A stretch of DNA of 25,983 bases from positions 1-25,983 of IMG/VR virus record IMGVR_UViG_3300009537_000153. One strand, given 5' to 3'. The notes under the pieces were generated by a model. That model had not been told where the DNA came from. It ran no database searches and saw only the letters and a list, made by a program, of their open reading frames with translations. The stretch comes from a virus. Within the stretch, counting starts at the first letter, position 1; every line of letters begins with the position of its first letter. Of this stretch, positions 5,485 through 24,409 are shown one piece after another. Position numbers and translations under genes: made by a program.

Positions 5485-5624
5485 TGTTTTATGAGTTAGT
5501 GACGCTCATCTTTAGCACTAATTAATTTCGAATGAGTGACTTTCGACTTTAGCACTCAATCCCCGTAGGGAAGGAGTTTTTTAAGGAGAAAAACTCTCAA
5601 GAAAAACCAATCTATTAAGGAAGA
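5485..5624 (-). ncRNA. Structured intergenic leader with four hairpins
   Basis: There is no gene in these 140 nt. Four inverted repeats follow one another. 5496-5521 has TTAGTG paired with CACTAA and a 14-nt loop. 5533-5558 has TGAGTG paired with CACTCA and a 14-nt loop. 5561-5570 is CCC/GGG with a 4-nt loop. 5574-5596 has an 8-bp stem GAGTTTTT/AAAAACTC with a 7-nt loop. The first two share the minus-strand loop start CTAAAG and loop length but differ by a compensated base pair. This looks like a 5' leader of the 184-aa gene with protein- or ribosome-responsive RNA structures. No U-run follows any stem, so none is a typical terminator. Confidence 0.5.
5496..5558 (-). repeat. Tandem GTG-CTAAAG hairpins, copies 1 and 2
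   Basis: Minus-strand copies read TTAGTG, then a loop beginning CTAAAG and ending CGT, then CACTAA; and TGAGTG, then a loop CTAAAG...AGT, then CACTCA. Both stems are 6 bp and both loops 14 nt. A third copy occurs at 8666-8690 before the scaffold gene. Stem covariation (T-A against G-C) with a conserved loop end argues for RNA or protein-operator function rather than chance. Confidence 0.55.
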
Positions 5625-8650: not shown

Positions 8651-8665
8651 TTTTTATATGGTGGA

Positions 8666-8690
8666 TAGTGACTCCCACCCTTTAGCACTA
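8666..8690 (-). repeat. GTG-CTAAAG hairpin, copy 3, in the scaffold leader
   Basis: Minus strand: TAGTG, a 15-nt loop CTAAAG...GGGAGT, then CACTA. The stem is 5 bp. It sits between the 61-aa gene and the scaffold start, the same relation to an ATG as copy 1 (11-15 nt upstream). The loop contains GGGTGGGAG, which also occurs at the edge of the structured element near 14.67 kb. Confidence 0.5.
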
Positions 8691-8696
8691 AATCGA

Positions 8697-8882
8697 CTAT
8701 TTAGTTTTTGATTTTTTAATGTTCTTTCGTTTGGGCTTCTTTTTACCCACGACCTTTTTCTTTGGCTTAACTATTCTTTTTACTTCCTCTGCTATTTCTT
8801 TTTTTATTTGTTCTTCAATATTCTCCATTGGTTCTGGTTGTCTTGGCTTTTTGCTAAATATGAAATTTACTTTTACTCCCAT
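8697..8882 (-). CDS. Small, strongly basic protein (61 aa)
   Basis: Not recognised. After a short N-terminal strand (MGVKVNFIFSKKP) there is a charged helix (about 20-38), then a lysine-rich tail of about 22 residues with KPKKK repeats. Such tails bind nucleic acid or the inner capsid surface. It lies between portal (7 nt gap) and scaffold, so co-expression with head assembly is likely. A DNA-condensing or scaffold-accessory role is only a guess. Confidence 0.55.
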   Translation of the reverse strand: MGVKVNFIFSKKPRQPEPMENIEEQIKKEIAEEVKRIVKPKKKVVGKKKPKRKNIKKSKTK

Positions 8883-8889
8883 ATTATTT

Positions 8890-10695
8890 TTATTGTATGG
8901 GGACTTGGTTTATAGAAGCACGACTAACTGCTTCTTCTGTTCCTGTTTGTGGTTGTGGAACTCCTGATTCTCCCGCTTGTCCTGCCTGAGTTGCTTGGAG
9001 CTGACCGAGTTGTAACTGATTCTGCAGAAGTGCGATTGGGTTTGCTTTCCACAAAATTAGTCTTCTTACAAACTCTTTAGGGTCGGGAACTTCAAGTCTT
9101 TCTGCAAGCGTAAGCGGGTCTAGTGCTCCTGCACTCCAGAGTTCTACTGCTTCATTGCGTTGAGTAAGTCTGTCTTTAGGAATCAATGAGCCCTCTTTAA
9201 CACTCACGATAAGCGGAGCTATAAAGTCAGCAGAAGATATTGTGTCATCCCCTGAGCTTCTGGTGACTGGTTTTGGCTCGTCATAATAAACCATCATCAA
9301 CTGAACAAACCAGTTAAAAACGTAGTCATAGAATTGTTCTATGTGGTCAACAATAAGACTTGCTCTATCTGCGTCTTGTCCTCTTATTAAAATCTTTCCT
9401 CTAACTGTGTTCTCGCTTTGTATTCCTTGAGAAGAAAGTCCAGTTACTCCGAAGAGTCCTAGCACTCTGTTGCGGGTATCAACTAAGTCCTGATAGACAT
9501 AGTTAGGAAGTGAAACATTATCAAATTGCTTTATTACTCTGCTCAAATCACCTGTAGGAACTCTTATTGTTTCTCCTCTTCTTCTGGCTATTCCCACGCC
9601 TCGTGCTTGTTCGTGTGTAAATACTTCTCCTGATACTGCGATTCCTCCATTTGCGTTGTCTGCGTTCTTATCAATCTGGCGGACTCTTTTATCTACAATG
9701 TCTTGCAGTGACAAAACTTGTTCAACTAGATTTGTGCTGTCGTATGGTCCTTTGCCTAGATTAAATATTGACAAGAATGCAAAAGGCATCTTTCTTGTTT
9801 CAAAATGATTATTTCCAGGAATGGACTGCATATCGATTATCGGTTCTCCCATCTCATCAAGCTCACCCGTGGGAGCTGGTTGCTGTTCTTCATAATTCCA
9901 GTGCGGGTTCTTTGCTTTATCTAATACTTCGCTTCCTAATGACCAGAAAATAAAATCATTTGTCCACCACTCTATGTAACGGATTTTTGTTCCTAGTTTC
10001 TTTTTTCCTAATGCTCCTAGTATTTCTTTTTTCTTTTTAGGGAATCTGAGAATCAAATCACTTGCCTTGTCTTCTCTGTAGTGTCCTATGTATTCTCCGA
10101 AGTATTCACACTCATCAGTAATTGAATCAGGGTCAAGAATAAGTTTCTGCGGTCTTACTGCTTCCACATCAATTTCGTCTTTCTCTAAATTCCAGCCTAG
10201 TTTTATTACGCCAAGAAAATAAAGCGACCAATTACGAATTGCTTTTTTTACTTTAAGTCTGAGTCTTAAGGAATCAGAAACATCTACAATCTTGTCTTCA
10301 ACTTTTTTCGCAAACTCCGCAAACTGCGGTGATGTGTCAATAAGAGGTTGTGCTATCTGCCTTGACACAACAGGAAGAAATGTTTCTAGTGCTTCAAATA
10401 CTATATTGTCAACGGGCTCTCGTTGTCCTGTCTTTTTTTGGTTTTTTGTGTAGTGTTCACCGAGCCAATATCTTTCGTTTTCTTTTTGTTTCGCTTCAAT
10501 GTCTTCACGAAGTTTTGAGTCTTCCCACTTCTTCTCCCAATCTATTTTTAGCTCAATGAGTTCTTCGTCTGACTTATCAAGCGATAATTCTCCAAGAGGA
10601 ACGCCAACTACGCCTTCTTGTCGTTCGTCTCGTTGCTCGCCTGCGAACTTGTTTGTGTTTTTTCCTAATGATAGAAATCCGTCTAAGAAACTCAT
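8890..10695 (-). CDS. Portal protein (601 aa)
   Basis: Forms the dodecameric DNA-entry vertex. Supporting features are the size and the place between terminase and scaffold. Residues 95-113 (VDNIVFEALETFLPVVSRQ) and 181-203 (RPQKLILDPD...CEYFGEYI) match the stem/wing layout of large portals. A long helix near 425-465 (TVRGKILIRGQDADR...DHIEQFYDYVFNWF) fits the crown/stem helices. The C-terminal 50 residues are Gln/Gly-rich and probably flexible. A rho-independent terminator ends 5 nt before the ATG, so the message must either start inside that short stretch or come from read-through of the upstream leader. Confidence 0.85.
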   Translation of the reverse strand: MSFLDGFLSLGKNTNKFAGEQRDERQEGVVGVPLGELSLDKSDEELIELKIDWEKKWEDSKLREDIEAKQKENERYWLGEHYTKNQKKTGQREPVDNIVFEALETFLPVVSRQIAQPLIDTSPQFAEFAKKVEDKIVDVSDSLRLRLKVKKAIRNWSLYFLGVIKLGWNLEKDEIDVEAVRPQKLILDPDSITDECEYFGEYIGHYREDKASDLILRFPKKKKEILGALGKKKLGTKIRYIEWWTNDFIFWSLGSEVLDKAKNPHWNYEEQQPAPTGELDEMGEPIIDMQSIPGNNHFETRKMPFAFLSIFNLGKGPYDSTNLVEQVLSLQDIVDKRVRQIDKNADNANGGIAVSGEVFTHEQARGVGIARRRGETIRVPTGDLSRVIKQFDNVSLPNYVYQDLVDTRNRVLGLFGVTGLSSQGIQSENTVRGKILIRGQDADRASLIVDHIEQFYDYVFNWFVQLMMVYYDEPKPVTRSSGDDTISSADFIAPLIVSVKEGSLIPKDRLTQRNEAVELWSAGALDPLTLAERLEVPDPKEFVRRLILWKANPIALLQNQLQLGQLQATQAGQAGESGVPQPQTGTEEAVSRASINQVPIQ

Positions 10696-10700
10696 TTTTT

Positions 10701-10731
10701 AAATAAAAAAAGCACCCATTCTGGAGTGCTT
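10701..10731 (-). terminator. Leader terminator directly before the portal start
   Basis: Minus-strand stem AAGCACTC / GGGTGCTT (8 bp including one G-U pair, which makes it better on this strand), 6-nt loop CAGAAT, then TTTTTATTT. The portal ATG is at 10695, only 5 nt after the end of the U-run, and a promoter lies upstream at 10784-10808. This is an attenuator-like arrangement. Confidence 0.75.
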
Positions 10732-10783
10732 CTAATGCGTTTTAGTTAGCTCTCTTTTGAAATTATTATTTCTCTACTCTACT

Positions 10784-10808
10784 AATATAACATAAATTAT
10801 GCAGTCAA
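10784..10808 (-). promoter_or_regulatory. Extended -10 promoter for the head operon
   Basis: Minus strand TGTTATATT (10792-10784), with TTGACT 13 nt upstream of the TATATT hexamer (10808-10803). The expected start is near 10777, giving a leader of about 80 nt that includes the terminator at 10701-10731. The -35 spacing is short for sigma70, but the extended -10 could compensate. Two other sites in the window have the same TTGAC / TGTTATAAT architecture. Confidence 0.5.
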
Positions 10809-18228: not shown

Positions 18229-18255
18229 ATTATAACATATTTGAATACTTGTCAA
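18229..18255 (-). promoter_or_regulatory. Extended -10 promoter with consensus -35
   Basis: Minus strand TTGACA (18255-18250), 15-nt spacer, TATAAT (18234-18229) with TGT just before it. It lies at the 3' end of ninG. The predicted start near 18222 leaves about 6 nt of leader for the 75-aa membrane protein and would drive the 18.2-16.2 kb genes. Confidence 0.6.
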
Positions 18256-19064: not shown

Positions 19065-19441
19065 TATTTACAATGTATCGGACAATGTTTGCATTTGTCC
19101 TCGTTTTTTGATTTCGACTTTTTAGAAGTTGATAGGTATTTAGTTATTAATTTATTCCAGCTTATGTTTTTTCCCTCAGGAAGTTTATTCATATCAGGAT
19201 ATGTATCATAAGTTTTCAGAGCATACCAGAGAGTTCTTTCTGATGTTCCTATATCTAGTGCAAGGGCTTGCAGTAAATTAGTGATTTCTTTTTTGTATTC
19301 CTTTCTCATCAGCTTCCCCACCAACCAATACCCCTCTATCAGTGTCCATCGGCTGTTATGGACCGCTTCTGTGATTGTGCTTTTTATCTCTTCGACAAAA
19401 GCGTGATACTTTTCGTCTTTTTTTACTAATTCTTTACCCAT
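19064..19441 (-). CDS. DUF1016-N-like protein with cysteine tail (125 aa)
   Basis: Residues 10-105 resemble the N-terminal helical domain of YhcG/DUF1016 proteins: SRWTLIEGYWLVGKLM, then LLQALALDIGTSERTLWYAL as an HTH-like pair, then ISWNKLITKYL. The nuclease half of YhcG is absent; instead the chain ends in a basic linker and a cysteine-rich tip (CKHCPIHCK, about 117-125). This is likely DNA- or protein-binding. The truncated architecture suggests a stand-alone recognition domain. Confidence 0.55.
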   Translation of the reverse strand: MGKELVKKDEKYHAFVEEIKSTITEAVHNSRWTLIEGYWLVGKLMRKEYKKEITNLLQALALDIGTSERTLWYALKTYDTYPDMNKLPEGKNISWNKLITKYLSTSKKSKSKNEDKCKHCPIHCK

Positions 19442-19692
19442 ATTATTTTCATATCTTTAACCTTTTTAATAAATAAGGGCAATTTATGAGGAAACTCACA
19501 CTTGGAAATCTCGGTAAATGTCTCTCTTGTCGCTTGGACTCCTTTATCTCCTATTATTTTCATAATCCGAGGGAAAGAAAGCTCTTTTCTAAAAAATTCA
19601 TAGATTTCAGCAGCAAGCTCTTGCTTTGCAGATATTTTTCTTAAAACAAACTTTTTTGAATAATCTTTTATATCCATATTCCGTAGACCCAC
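19426..19692 (-). CDS. Hypothetical protein with GTG start (88 aa)
   Basis: The GTG at 19692 is supported by the strong Shine-Dalgarno GGGAGGAG just upstream; an in-frame ATG follows five codons later. The protein is helical and Lys/Phe-rich (YEFFRKELSFPRIMKIIGDKG), possibly with an HTH-like middle, but I cannot name a family. Overlaps the next start by 16 nt. It opens a new transcription unit after the 200-nt structured leader. Confidence 0.55.
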   Translation of the reverse strand: MGLRNMDIKDYSKKFVLRKISAKQELAAEIYEFFRKELSFPRIMKIIGDKGVQATRETFTEISKCEFPHKLPLFIKKVKDMKIIWVKN

Positions 19693-19704: not shown

Positions 19705-19905
19705 AATATCTGGAAACAGTTTTTAAATAAAAATATAAACTCTTTATCTAAAACACTGATGGGAGTCGCCTGTTGTTGGTGGGTGGAACAGAGCAGGCTA
19801 TTTTGTTAAGAGGAGTCTCCTCAAGCAACTCTTAATCAATGTTTTAAATATGTGGGGTGTTTTTGTTGAGAATCACCGAAAACTCTGAGTTGTTTTTCTA
19901 TGTAA
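19705..19905 (-). ncRNA. Gene-free 5' leader with two hairpins
   Basis: No ORF of note in 200 nt. 19806-19835 has an outer stem TTAAGAG/CTCTTAA with an inner perfect palindrome GAGGAG-x-CTCCTC (19810-19822). 19768-19798 pairs GCCTG/CAGGC with an inner TGTT/AACA and a 9-nt loop. They lie between the terminator at 19905-19975 and the strong ribosome site, so they are probably the leader of the 88-aa gene. I could not find a convincing promoter inside. Confidence 0.4.
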
Positions 19906-20013
19906 ATAAAAAACCCTCATTATTAGACAGACAGAATGAGCATTGCCATCCCAGCTGTCCGCCTAATAATAGGGGCTTTTAAGTTGGCAATGTATTCGGG
20001 TTTAATATTTACT
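19905..20013 (-). ncRNA. Candidate small RNA: pseudoknot plus terminator
   Basis: Minus strand. A long stem pairs 19975-19963 (CCCCTATTATTAG) with 19926-19914 (CTAATAATGAGGG), 12 of 13 positions with one wobble. It continues into a 6-bp inner stem GGACAG/CTGTCT and is followed by TTTTTTATTT. The apical loop contains GGCAATG (19947-19941), perfectly complementary to CATTGCC (19992-19986) upstream of the stem, giving an H-type pseudoknot. An extended -10 at 20020-20028 lies about 7 nt before the predicted start. The unit would be a roughly 105-nt RNA. Confidence 0.5.
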
Positions 20014-20019
20014 AGTTTC

Positions 20020-20028
20020 ATAATAACA
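20020..20028 (-). promoter_or_regulatory. Extended -10 (TGTTATTAT) for the small-RNA unit
   Basis: Minus-strand TGT followed by TATTAT (one mismatch to TATAAT). No consensus -35 at 15-18 nt. The predicted start is near 20013. The same TGTTAT core is used at 10784, 18229 and 23775. Confidence 0.4.
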
Positions 20029-20063
20029 CATCACGGACCTCACGCAAACGAGGTTGTGGATAA

Positions 20064-20321
20064 CTATTTTCTAAACTTTTTTGCTATATTATCGTGTTCT
20101 TTAATCATCGACTTCTGAAAGGGGGTGAGAGAGGCAGAAACTTCCCTCTGATGTCTGCATTCCTGCTTCATTGAGCCACGAACGCAGTTACACCTCATCT
20201 CACCACCCCAGAATACATCTACATCATATTTCCAGCCAGGTTCAGAATTACTCTGAATCTTAAAAGTCTGAAATATCAAGTCCTTCTCCATCTCCTGAAG
20301 AATCTTTTTGATTATCTTCAT
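20064..20321 (-). CDS. SWIM zinc-finger protein (up to 85 aa)
   Basis: Contains the SWIM signature CxC...CxH: C44-x-C46, C55-x-H57, preceded by the usual strand pattern KYDVDVFWGGEMRCNC. SWIM fingers bind DNA or mediate protein contacts in recombination and transposase systems. From the first ATG it would overlap the SSB-like gene by 62 nt. An ATG at 20291, or a TTG at 20279 with GGAG 6 nt upstream, would give shorter overlaps and the start position typical of small SWIM proteins. It probably partners the upstream SSB-like and nuclease genes. Confidence 0.7.
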   Translation of the reverse strand: MKIIKKILQEMEKDLIFQTFKIQSNSEPGWKYDVDVFWGGEMRCNCVRGSMKQECRHQREVSASLTPFQKSMIKEHDNIAKKFRK

Positions 20322-22803: not shown

Positions 22804-22995
22804 TTATTCCTCAGAAGACTCTTCTTCGGCTACTTCTTCAGCAGCTTCTACTACTTCTTCTTGAGGGGCTTCTACTTTTTCTTCTGGCATATTTTTATCA
22901 TTTAATGACGACCTTTGGGTTAGCTTGCTAAGATACATAACAATAGCAAGCATCAGAACAAGAGATAGTATTTTAATTAGTTCCCAGCCTATCAT
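22804..22995 (-). CDS. Single-pass membrane protein with acidic tail, possible holin/spanin (63 aa)
   Basis: The ATG at 22995 overlaps the lysozyme stop as ATGA; a start five codons earlier is possible. One transmembrane helix (about 8-24, ILSLVLMLAIVMYL) is followed by a basic patch and a very acidic 28-residue tail (PEEKVEAPQEEVVEA...). Directly after the lysozyme gene, so a lysis partner is likely; a one-helix holin or inner-membrane spanin would fit. An internal ATG at 22890 is preceded by AAAGGTCG 18 nt upstream, so the acidic tail might also be made alone. Confidence 0.6.
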   Translation of the reverse strand: MIGWELIKILSLVLMLAIVMYLSKLTQRSSLNDKNMPEEKVEAPQEEVVEAAEEVAEEESSEE

Positions 22996-23492
22996 GATTT
23001 GCATACCCAATCTTTAACTCCGTTTTTTTGATAAAGAAATAAGGCGTAATCGAGATTATCATAAGGGTCTTCGGCATCAAGATTCATTTCTTCAAGTGTT
23101 TCAGAGTGAACAGCAAGATTTATTTGGGCAATTCCCGTATCTGGCGGATGTATTACTCCTCGCAATACATTTCCCTTTGAATCATACTGCCTCCACCTTG
23201 ATTCGCAATAAAAAATTCTTTTCAGCTTTTCGTAGTCCTTATATGACAACCCCTCCTCTAGCATTCTATTAAAAAGATAGAACTGCCATTGGATGACTTC
23301 GGGTGTTTGTAGGAAATAGTTCTCAAATTCGTCTCTCAGCAGATATTCTGGTGCTTGAGCTACGCTAGATGTCGGTATTGCATAGAGAAACGCTCCTAGT
23401 GCAATCTTGTTCAGGTAAGAACCTTCGACAAAACTCATTATACTAACCGCTCCCAGAATCAGAGATGCTACTACCTTTTTTAATTTTGTCAT
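22992..23492 (-). CDS. Secreted lysozyme/lytic transglycosylase-like endolysin (166 aa)
   Basis: Probably cleaves the glycan strands of peptidoglycan at the end of infection. The N-terminus is a signal peptide or signal anchor (basic MTKLKK, a hydrophobic stretch to about 40, then a possible cleavage after SVAQA at 47). The catalytic region has FYCESRW with E97 as general acid, DTGIAQIN at 118-125 as the second SLT motif, and a C-terminal YALFLYQKNGVKDW. C96 and C164 could form a disulfide in the periplasm. GGAG lies 9 nt before the ATG. The family (SLT/GH23-like) is inferred from motif spacing. Confidence 0.78.
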   Translation of the reverse strand: MTKLKKVVASLILGAVSIMSFVEGSYLNKIALGAFLYAIPTSSVAQAPEYLLRDEFENYFLQTPEVIQWQFYLFNRMLEEGLSYKDYEKLKRIFYCESRWRQYDSKGNVLRGVIHPPDTGIAQINLAVHSETLEEMNLDAEDPYDNLDYALFLYQKNGVKDWVCKS

Positions 23493-23770
23493 TTAGCCAG
23501 ACTCCACGAACTCAATCACAATATTCGTCTTTTGTTAGCAGCCTGTCTCCCGTCTTAATTAAAATGGATACAGGATTTCCATCTGTTTGGGCTTGACGGG
23601 AGATTGCCTTTGAAATAAATCGGAAAAGCCTTTAACACCCAAAATTCAGACGGAAGACAGATTGCTATGTAAAAGAATGAATGGCGGGATTTTTATCATT
23701 CGATGGGTTATGACCCCCAGAATGTTTTGTTGAGCCCGCCGTCTACGCCTTAGATTGCTCTTTAGCGTAT
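23493..23770 (-). ncRNA. Structured gene-free leader upstream of the lysis genes
   Basis: About 280 nt without an ORF, transcribed from the promoter at 23775. Elements in order on the minus strand: TACGC/GCGTA stem near the 5' end; GGCGGG/CCCGCC (6 bp) enclosing CATTC/GAATG and TGGG/CCCA; CTGTCTTCCGTC, able to pair over 12 positions with GACGGGAGACAG further on; and TCTCCCGTC, which competes for the same partner (9 bp). GCAATCT occurs three times (23758, 23665, 23607). Two mutually exclusive stems suggest a switching RNA; an independent small RNA is also possible. Confidence 0.5.
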
Positions 23771-23774
23771 CTTC

Positions 23775-23800
23775 ATTATAACAAATAATAACGGGGTCAA
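23775..23800 (-). promoter_or_regulatory. Extended -10 promoter for the lysis leader
   Basis: Minus strand TGTTATAAT (perfect, 23783-23775) with TTGACC 14 nt upstream (23800-23795). The -35 spacing is short but matches the two other TTGAC/TGTTATAAT sites. The downstream start is near 23768. Confidence 0.6.
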
Positions 23801-24192: not shown

Positions 24193-24247
24193 TCAGAACT
24201 TTTGTTCTGATACCTCATTATAGCAAACGCACTTTTTTAATTCGCAA
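24193..24247 (-). promoter_or_regulatory. Extended -10 promoter with a hairpin at the 5' end of its RNA
   Basis: Minus strand TGCTATAAT (24225-24217), with TTGCGA 19 nt upstream (24247-24242) as a weak -35. The predicted start is near 24210, where a perfect 7-bp hairpin TCAGAAC-AAAA-GTTCTGA (24210-24193) begins. Such 5'-terminal hairpins protect messages from decay. A CCGCC/GGCGG stem with TAAAAAGTCG in its loop follows nearer to the 80-aa gene. Confidence 0.55.
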
Positions 24248-24409
24248 TTAAATCGGGTTTAATTCAAAACAAATGCGATGAAATCTACACCGACTTCTAA
24301 AAAGAGGGGCGACTTGACACGATTAAATCTACATCGCAAAAAAAAGATTTCACTATTTTACTACACTTTTGTTTAAGCTATATCTAGCTATCTACAGATT
24401 ATCAACACT
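24248..24409. repeat. Gene-free segment with paired 17-nt direct repeats
   Basis: No ORF. CGATGAAATCTACACCG (24276-24292) and CGATTAAATCTACATCG (24320-24336) match at 15 of 17 positions, 44 nt apart, about four helical turns. CGACTT occurs twice between them, and TGCGATG / CATCGCA frame the set. The copies are nearly palindromic at their ends (CGAT...ATCG), as expected for repressor or initiator sites. They lie just upstream of the 80-aa gene's promoter. Confidence 0.45.

Follow-up and report, generated by a model that had tools for sequence, protein, structure and literature searches.

The DNA analysed here, hereafter the window, comprises the 25,983 bases of a virus record in IMG/VR. Its recognisable genes all lie on the minus strand, with the structural set to the left and the early set to the right. 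A gap of 371 nt between a SWIM-like ORF (20064-20321) and the ORF at 19426-19692 contains a compact series of sequence features, all read from the minus strand:

20055..20063, minus strand: TTATCCACA, upstream promoter element that has the DnaA-box consensus and stands 29 nt ahead of the -10
20020..20028, minus strand: extended -10 TGTTATTAT, with a predicted transcription start near 20013
19985..19992, minus strand: 5' strand a, CATTGCCA, the 5' half of the putative antiterminator, extended by GAAT at 19994-19997
19955..19980, minus strand: terminator left arm b, AAAAGCCCCTATTATTAGGCGGACAG
19941..19948, minus strand: loop strand a', TGGCAATG, which complements a
19910..19934, minus strand: terminator right arm b', CTGTCTGTCTAATAATGAGGGTTTT
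19904..19913, minus strand: U-run TTTTTTATTT, the predicted 3' end of a short RNA
19923..20021, minus strand: 32-codon ORF across the element, its ATG overlapping the -10; probably incidental
19426..19692, minus strand: first ORF past the terminator, with possible starts at GTG 19692 and ATG 19674; no recognised replication gene

The hairpin, its promoter and the overlapping ORF

An earlier note on this DNA had described an extended -10, CATTGCC, a left arm, GGCAATG in the loop, a right arm and a U-run, and all of these are present. On the minus strand the extended -10 comes first, followed by CATTGCC(A) and one arm of the hairpin; (T)GGCAATG is in the loop, and the other arm and the U-run complete the series. 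The dimensions differ in part from those first given. The complementarity noted over 7 nt is real and extends to 8 nt, and the left arm described as 13 nt long is found within a stem that does not end there; it continues through GCG/UGU, GACAG/CUGUC and an A/U base to about 24 bp, including one C-A mismatch, and carries a loop of 20 nt. The RNA predicted to run from about 20013 to 19904 is likewise about 110 nt long instead of about 105 nt. Folding of the 124-nt interval gives a minimum free energy (MFE) of -36.2 kcal/mol (z -4.0), a stability reached by none of 200 shuffles; the plus strand is less striking (z -2.0). Among the U-run hairpins listed in a minus-strand scan of the window, this hairpin is the most stable, and with a U-run immediately after it the structure has the form of an intrinsic (rho-independent) terminator. 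Just past the terminator, also on the minus strand (19735-19860), there is a separate strong structure (z -5.5, matched by none of 200 shuffles), built from an outer stem of 16 bp, an inner one of 10 bp and an extended apical part.

The extended -10 ranks fifth among all minus-strand sites of the window by sigma-70 score, and sites of the same kind, TGCTATAAT and TGTTATAAT, occur at 24217 and 23775. In 74 non-redundant related phage loci, the stretch 24-47 nt upstream of promoter-like sites was examined for enriched words, and the most enriched 9-mers were TTATCCACA and its one-base shifts. TTATCCACA stands at 12 of 648 promoter-like sites in these loci, about 62-fold above background, and occurs 36 times in total against a mean of 9.2 for permuted words. 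Thirteen of the 36 copies are followed by a -10 at 24-40 nt, an arrangement that permuted words reach 0.5 times on average and 4 times at most. Because the window has the top enriched 9-mer of the relatives 29 nt ahead of its -10, the element's promoter is credible, and its extended -10 with TTATCCACA in the 24-40 nt range fits a sigma-70-type promoter carrying the upstream element of the clade. Combined with the strong hairpin and its U-run, this supports the idea, put forward in the earlier note, of a compact unit that has a promoter and a terminator of its own. TTATCCACA, which is the DnaA-box consensus, may be a DnaA-binding site at the promoter.

The 32-codon ORF had been regarded as incidental, and probably is so here, since its ATG lies within the -10 and its codon score is chance-like (-0.006 bits/codon, rank 36 of 66 among spurious ORFs). 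With its ATG overlapping the -10, it would not be a leader ORF in a transcript from the candidate promoter, and the search for a family match to it found none.

Several other features of the window were recorded, the first three on the minus strand. At 10690-10790, a box-like TTATACACA lies 29 nt from an extended -10; then come a short RNA and a terminator (10711) whose end is about 16 nt from the portal gene. A promoter-terminator layout ahead of the portal gene is also seen in several related phages. A leader of about 290 nt (23493-23782) leads from the promoter at 23775 to the ORF at 22992-23492, and within it TCTCCCGTC and GACGGGAGA could pair. Two gaps between structural genes (8651-8889 and 5485-5624) share a 26-nt similarity, TTAGTGCTAAA...GTCACTA. 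A 30-nt direct similarity (80%) between 19977-20006, in the region of the element's 5' strand, and 24234-24263, the upstream stretch of another promoter, was set aside as marginal after correction for multiple comparisons.

Recurrence of the design in other phages

Among shuffled sequences, 0.4-0.6% give an 8-nt Watson-Crick match of the loop to the 53 nt upstream, and 9-11% do so when G-U pairs are allowed. The prefix fold that uses a:a' has an energy of -22.4 kcal/mol, which is matched by 6 of 1000 upstream shuffles. By itself the 8-nt complementarity is only suggestive; as it is barely above chance, related sequences were needed. Within IMG/VR, no close homologue was reached through the SSB-like, Cas4-like or 350-aa protein, and a search with an exact 19-mer taken from right arm and U-run gave no homologue of the locus. 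The same was true of GTDB genomes searched by Cas4-like protein or terminase alignment and of 33 related records, and phage isolates yielded nothing of use. The terminase matches about 100 phage contigs at 31-65% identity, and the early regions of these terminase-related contigs showed no homology to the element's surroundings. Rfam returned no family at the gathering score, and chance-level matches only at low thresholds. Since there was no close homologue of the locus, the comparison was of the design and not of covariation in the element's own sequence.

For this comparison, 1.56 Mb of related phage DNA was searched for strong hairpins that have a loop of 14-60 nt and a U-run behind the stem. 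Pairing of the 5' flank with the loop was compared to shuffles, with the 3' flank serving as the control. Over 22 strong hairpins, Fisher P was 9e-5 for the 5' side versus 0.04 for the 3' flank. P values of 0.02 or below were obtained for the window, L117, L127 (two elements), L040, L098 and L005, and L114 gave z -2.6; L087, L144 and L006 are similar in look and statistically weak. The pairing often consists of two nested blocks, exemplified in L127 by TTCAACGAAA/TTTCGTTGAG and CTGGAAG/CTTCCAG. The sequences are nearly all different between phages, so that the pairing persists in spite of the changed bases, and the recurrence is treated as a shared design rather than as proven homology. In one element of L127 (18400-18660), GGGTTTGAATCCCCCTTGTTGCACC is also similar to the T-arm and acceptor 3' end of a tRNA; ARAGORN and Rfam gave no tRNA call there, and this candidate was dropped.

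Over all 600 long-loop hairpins there was no 5' excess (26 versus 29 at z <= -2.5). The claim was therefore limited to the strong, promoter-linked subset and then put to a held-out test. IMG/VR was scanned for AGTTATCCACA, a gap of 24-37 nt and TATAAT or TACAAT, with hairpins disregarded. This gave 212 unique promoters, 26 of which have a U-run hairpin within 220 nt, compared with 15 in an upstream control stretch. Thirteen promoters with loops of at least 10 nt formed the testable set, and z for the 5' side was -2.5 or lower in six of them (L196, L258, L159, L269, L309 and L190), against none of 13 for the 3'-flank control. These six are every tested held-out element with a stem score of at least 26. 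The binomial P is 9e-6 against a 4.3% background, and Fisher P against the set's own 3' control is a modest 0.015. The complementarity in the held-out set is confined to the 5' side. The pairing of 5' strand and loop singled out in the earlier note is in this way found again as an architecture, in related and in held-out phages.

Exclusive helices and a proposed attenuator

The interleaved segments had been read as an H-type pseudoknot superposed on a terminator, in which both helices would stand at once. They do occur in pseudoknot order, and a 10-nt linker could span the basal 13 bp alone, but the pairs of the upper stem would be lost and the energies are far worse: the full hairpin reaches -34.4 kcal/mol, as against -13.4 kcal/mol for the basal stem with an open loop plus -10.4 kcal/mol for the 8-bp helix, before any pseudoknot penalty. 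The comparison with relatives points the same way. The a:a' helix comprises 8-24 pairs in 16 of 17 elements, L006 being the exception, and a' ends 0-1 nt before b' in 12 of the 17 and 6 nt before it in the window. Where a' ends 0-1 nt ahead, b' cannot reach b without melting a:a', and the two helices are thus mutually exclusive on geometric grounds in most relatives; with the 6-nt right linker of the window, exclusion rests on the energies and the short left linker. The a-b-a'-b' order is compatible with an H-type pseudoknot or with two exclusive hairpins; energies and linker lengths together leave a stable pseudoknot scarcely credible and argue for an antiterminator/terminator switch. The earlier note had offered either a new regulatory RNA or a regulated terminator, and the second option is the better supported.

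Computed folding during synthesis gives two exclusive hairpins, the first preceding the terminator, as in an attenuator. The a:a' hairpin is the MFE structure when nt 73 to 93 have been made (-20 to -22 kcal/mol), and the terminator is dominant from nt 97 onward. The window terminator is about 14 kcal/mol more stable than the antiterminator, which counts against a switch. Along the best nested path from antiterminator to terminator the barrier is about 18-20 kcal/mol, and an early-formed antiterminator could thus persist long enough to matter; the folding energies exclude tertiary effects and proteins, and strand exchange via a transient pseudoknot would lower this barrier.

The element is best explained as a promoter-proximal transcription attenuator in which an antiterminator competes with a 24-bp terminator, a reading to which we assign a probability of roughly 0.58 and whose whole case is comparative and computed. 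RNA polymerase would start near 20013, at the promoter marked by the DnaA-box-like element. The first-made RNA a, CAUUGCCA, would pair with a', UGGCAAUG, which lies 3' of the left arm, and the resulting antiterminator hairpin would enclose the left arm in its loop. If the antiterminator persisted as the right arm emerged, polymerase would continue into the genes that lie downstream from 19.7 kb. If it were undone, the 24-bp terminator would form and an RNA of about 110 nt would be released. The switch might be flipped by a protein (an initiator or DnaA, for example), by a ribosome or by a second RNA.

Downstream genes, rival readings and known systems

Nine of the 17 elements precede replication-initiator, O-like or DnaD-like helicase-loader genes. 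The next gene matches Pfam Phage_rep_O in L005 and L114 and HTH_36 in L127 (both elements) and L117, and was assigned through PHROGs in L258, L159, L269 and L144. L190 is followed by a T5orf172/GIY-YIG protein and L309 and L196 by uncharacterised proteins, and there is no gene directly downstream of L006, L040, L098 or the window element. In most relatives the terminator lies between the promoter and the gene, mostly 5-45 nt from the start codon (about 250 nt in L114); the next ORF of the window begins 218 nt (GTG) or 232 nt (ATG) past the terminator. No good promoter was found in the window between the terminator and the gene at 19692, so the genes from 19692 to 18230 would need read-through, until the promoter at 18229. 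The downstream ORFs of the window have no match to any replication family, and the predicted fold of the downstream gene is too poor for use (mean pLDDT 60). In five isolated phages with related replication genes, these genes lie inside operons and room for a leader is mostly absent.

Some features bear on what might flip the switch. A leader ORF with its ATG at the predicted 5' end, open through the element, is present in six of the 17 elements against 0.67 expected (P <= 0.003). The predicted transcript of the window has no start codon for a translated leader peptide over the 5' strand. Shine-Dalgarno-like words precede just 5 of 41 starts in the window phage, which makes leaderless translation plausible in the six leader-ORF elements. 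Their near-absence before the start codons of the window points to non-SD or leaderless initiation in the host. A shared antisense promoter was not found over the 17 elements (mean percentile 0.50), the best site of the window being at the 92nd percentile.

Three further readings have to be weighed against an attenuator. The RNA of about 110 nt could be a stand-alone small RNA whose trans-acting targets would be phage RNAs, host RNAs or a protein, with the pairing shaping the RNA and not its termination. Its own promoter and terminator suit such a role, as does the precedent of lambda oop (PMC3985674), and the lack of a gene immediately downstream of the window element, L006, L040 and L098 agrees with it; a trans-acting RNA is conceivable in the window because its downstream genes start no sooner than 218-232 nt on. 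In most relatives, by contrast, the element lies 5-45 nt before a gene, on which the terminator must act, and no target is known, so we regard this reading as unlikely. An ordinary operon-end terminator past the SSB-like and SWIM-like genes, its loop complementary by chance, would account for the position 80 nt past the end of the SWIM-like ORF and would resemble the plain terminators in other window gaps, and a match of 7-8 nt has a chance of a few per cent with all options counted. It would not explain why a promoter element separates the gene from the terminator or why promoters of this kind are repeatedly followed by the interleaved design, and seems quite improbable.

In the remaining reading the locus is a DNA element, for example an origin of replication containing a DnaA box and inverted repeats, and RNA folding is a by-product. 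The DnaA-box consensus, the AT-rich inverted repeats and the replication genes nearby in relatives would all be expected of an origin. The one-direction layout of -10, 5' strand, terminator and U-run would not, nor would complementarity restricted to one side in the held-out set, and an origin is accordingly given very little weight. The attenuator remains the preferred reading for the window.

Since the design recurs, in unrelated sequences, ahead of DNA-replication genes of other uncultured phages, it has the look of an undescribed on/off switch of phage genes. The chances seem about even that these elements form an undescribed and widespread class of phage RNA switch, found mainly at replication-initiator operons, of which the window would be a variant gating other early genes. 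In such a class, phage replication would be gated at transcript elongation. No report of antiterminator/terminator leaders of phage replication genes was found in the literature searched, which was covered in part, and Rfam has no family for them. If confirmed, the class would show the means by which many uncultured phages control the onset of replication or sets of early genes, and it may tie this control to the host replication-initiator box TTATCCACA. It would also offer a signature, made up of box, -10, 5' strand and long-loop terminator, by which promoters and regulatory RNAs could be annotated in phage genomes lacking expression data.

Parts of this arrangement are found in known systems. 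For the Escherichia coli his leader, a DnaA-dependent attenuator with alternative leader structures has been proposed (PMC10989985). The likeness lies in these alternative structures and in the part in attenuation that is proposed for DnaA; in the his system the leader RNA contains the boxes, whereas the putative box here is in DNA upstream of the promoter. In lambda, pO-oop-tO is described as a unit close to the replication genes and to DnaA boxes, in which a short RNA has a promoter and a terminator to itself (PMC3985674). As described there, it shares with the present element a short promoter-terminator RNA and nearby DnaA boxes, but is transcribed against the neighbouring genes, antisense to cII, and the account of oop in that source describes no competition with an antiterminator. 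The late attenuator of lambda, pR'-6S-tR', comprises a promoter, a short RNA and a terminator followed by an operon that requires read-through, and lambda Q loads on promoter DNA. The same succession of promoter, short RNA, terminator and dependent operon is predicted here; the lambda system differs in the action of Q on promoter DNA and is not known to be defined by complementarity between 5' strand and loop.

Attenuation of rep-initiator mRNA is a classic plasmid device. In the rep-mRNA attenuators of pT181 and pIP501, a pre-emptor competes with a terminator hairpin just before the gene, and an antisense RNA acts as the switch (PMC5703833). The pairing scheme differs, in that the 5' strand here pairs with the terminator loop. 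The plasmid attenuators are flipped by a counter-transcribed antisense RNA, whereas no shared antisense promoter was seen here, and the next gene of the window is not a known initiator, initiators or loaders following 9 of the 17 elements, all in other phages. In both designs, as computed for the phage element, an upstream leader segment competes with a terminator ahead of a gene, and the plasmid systems are rated the closest working analogue of the phage element.
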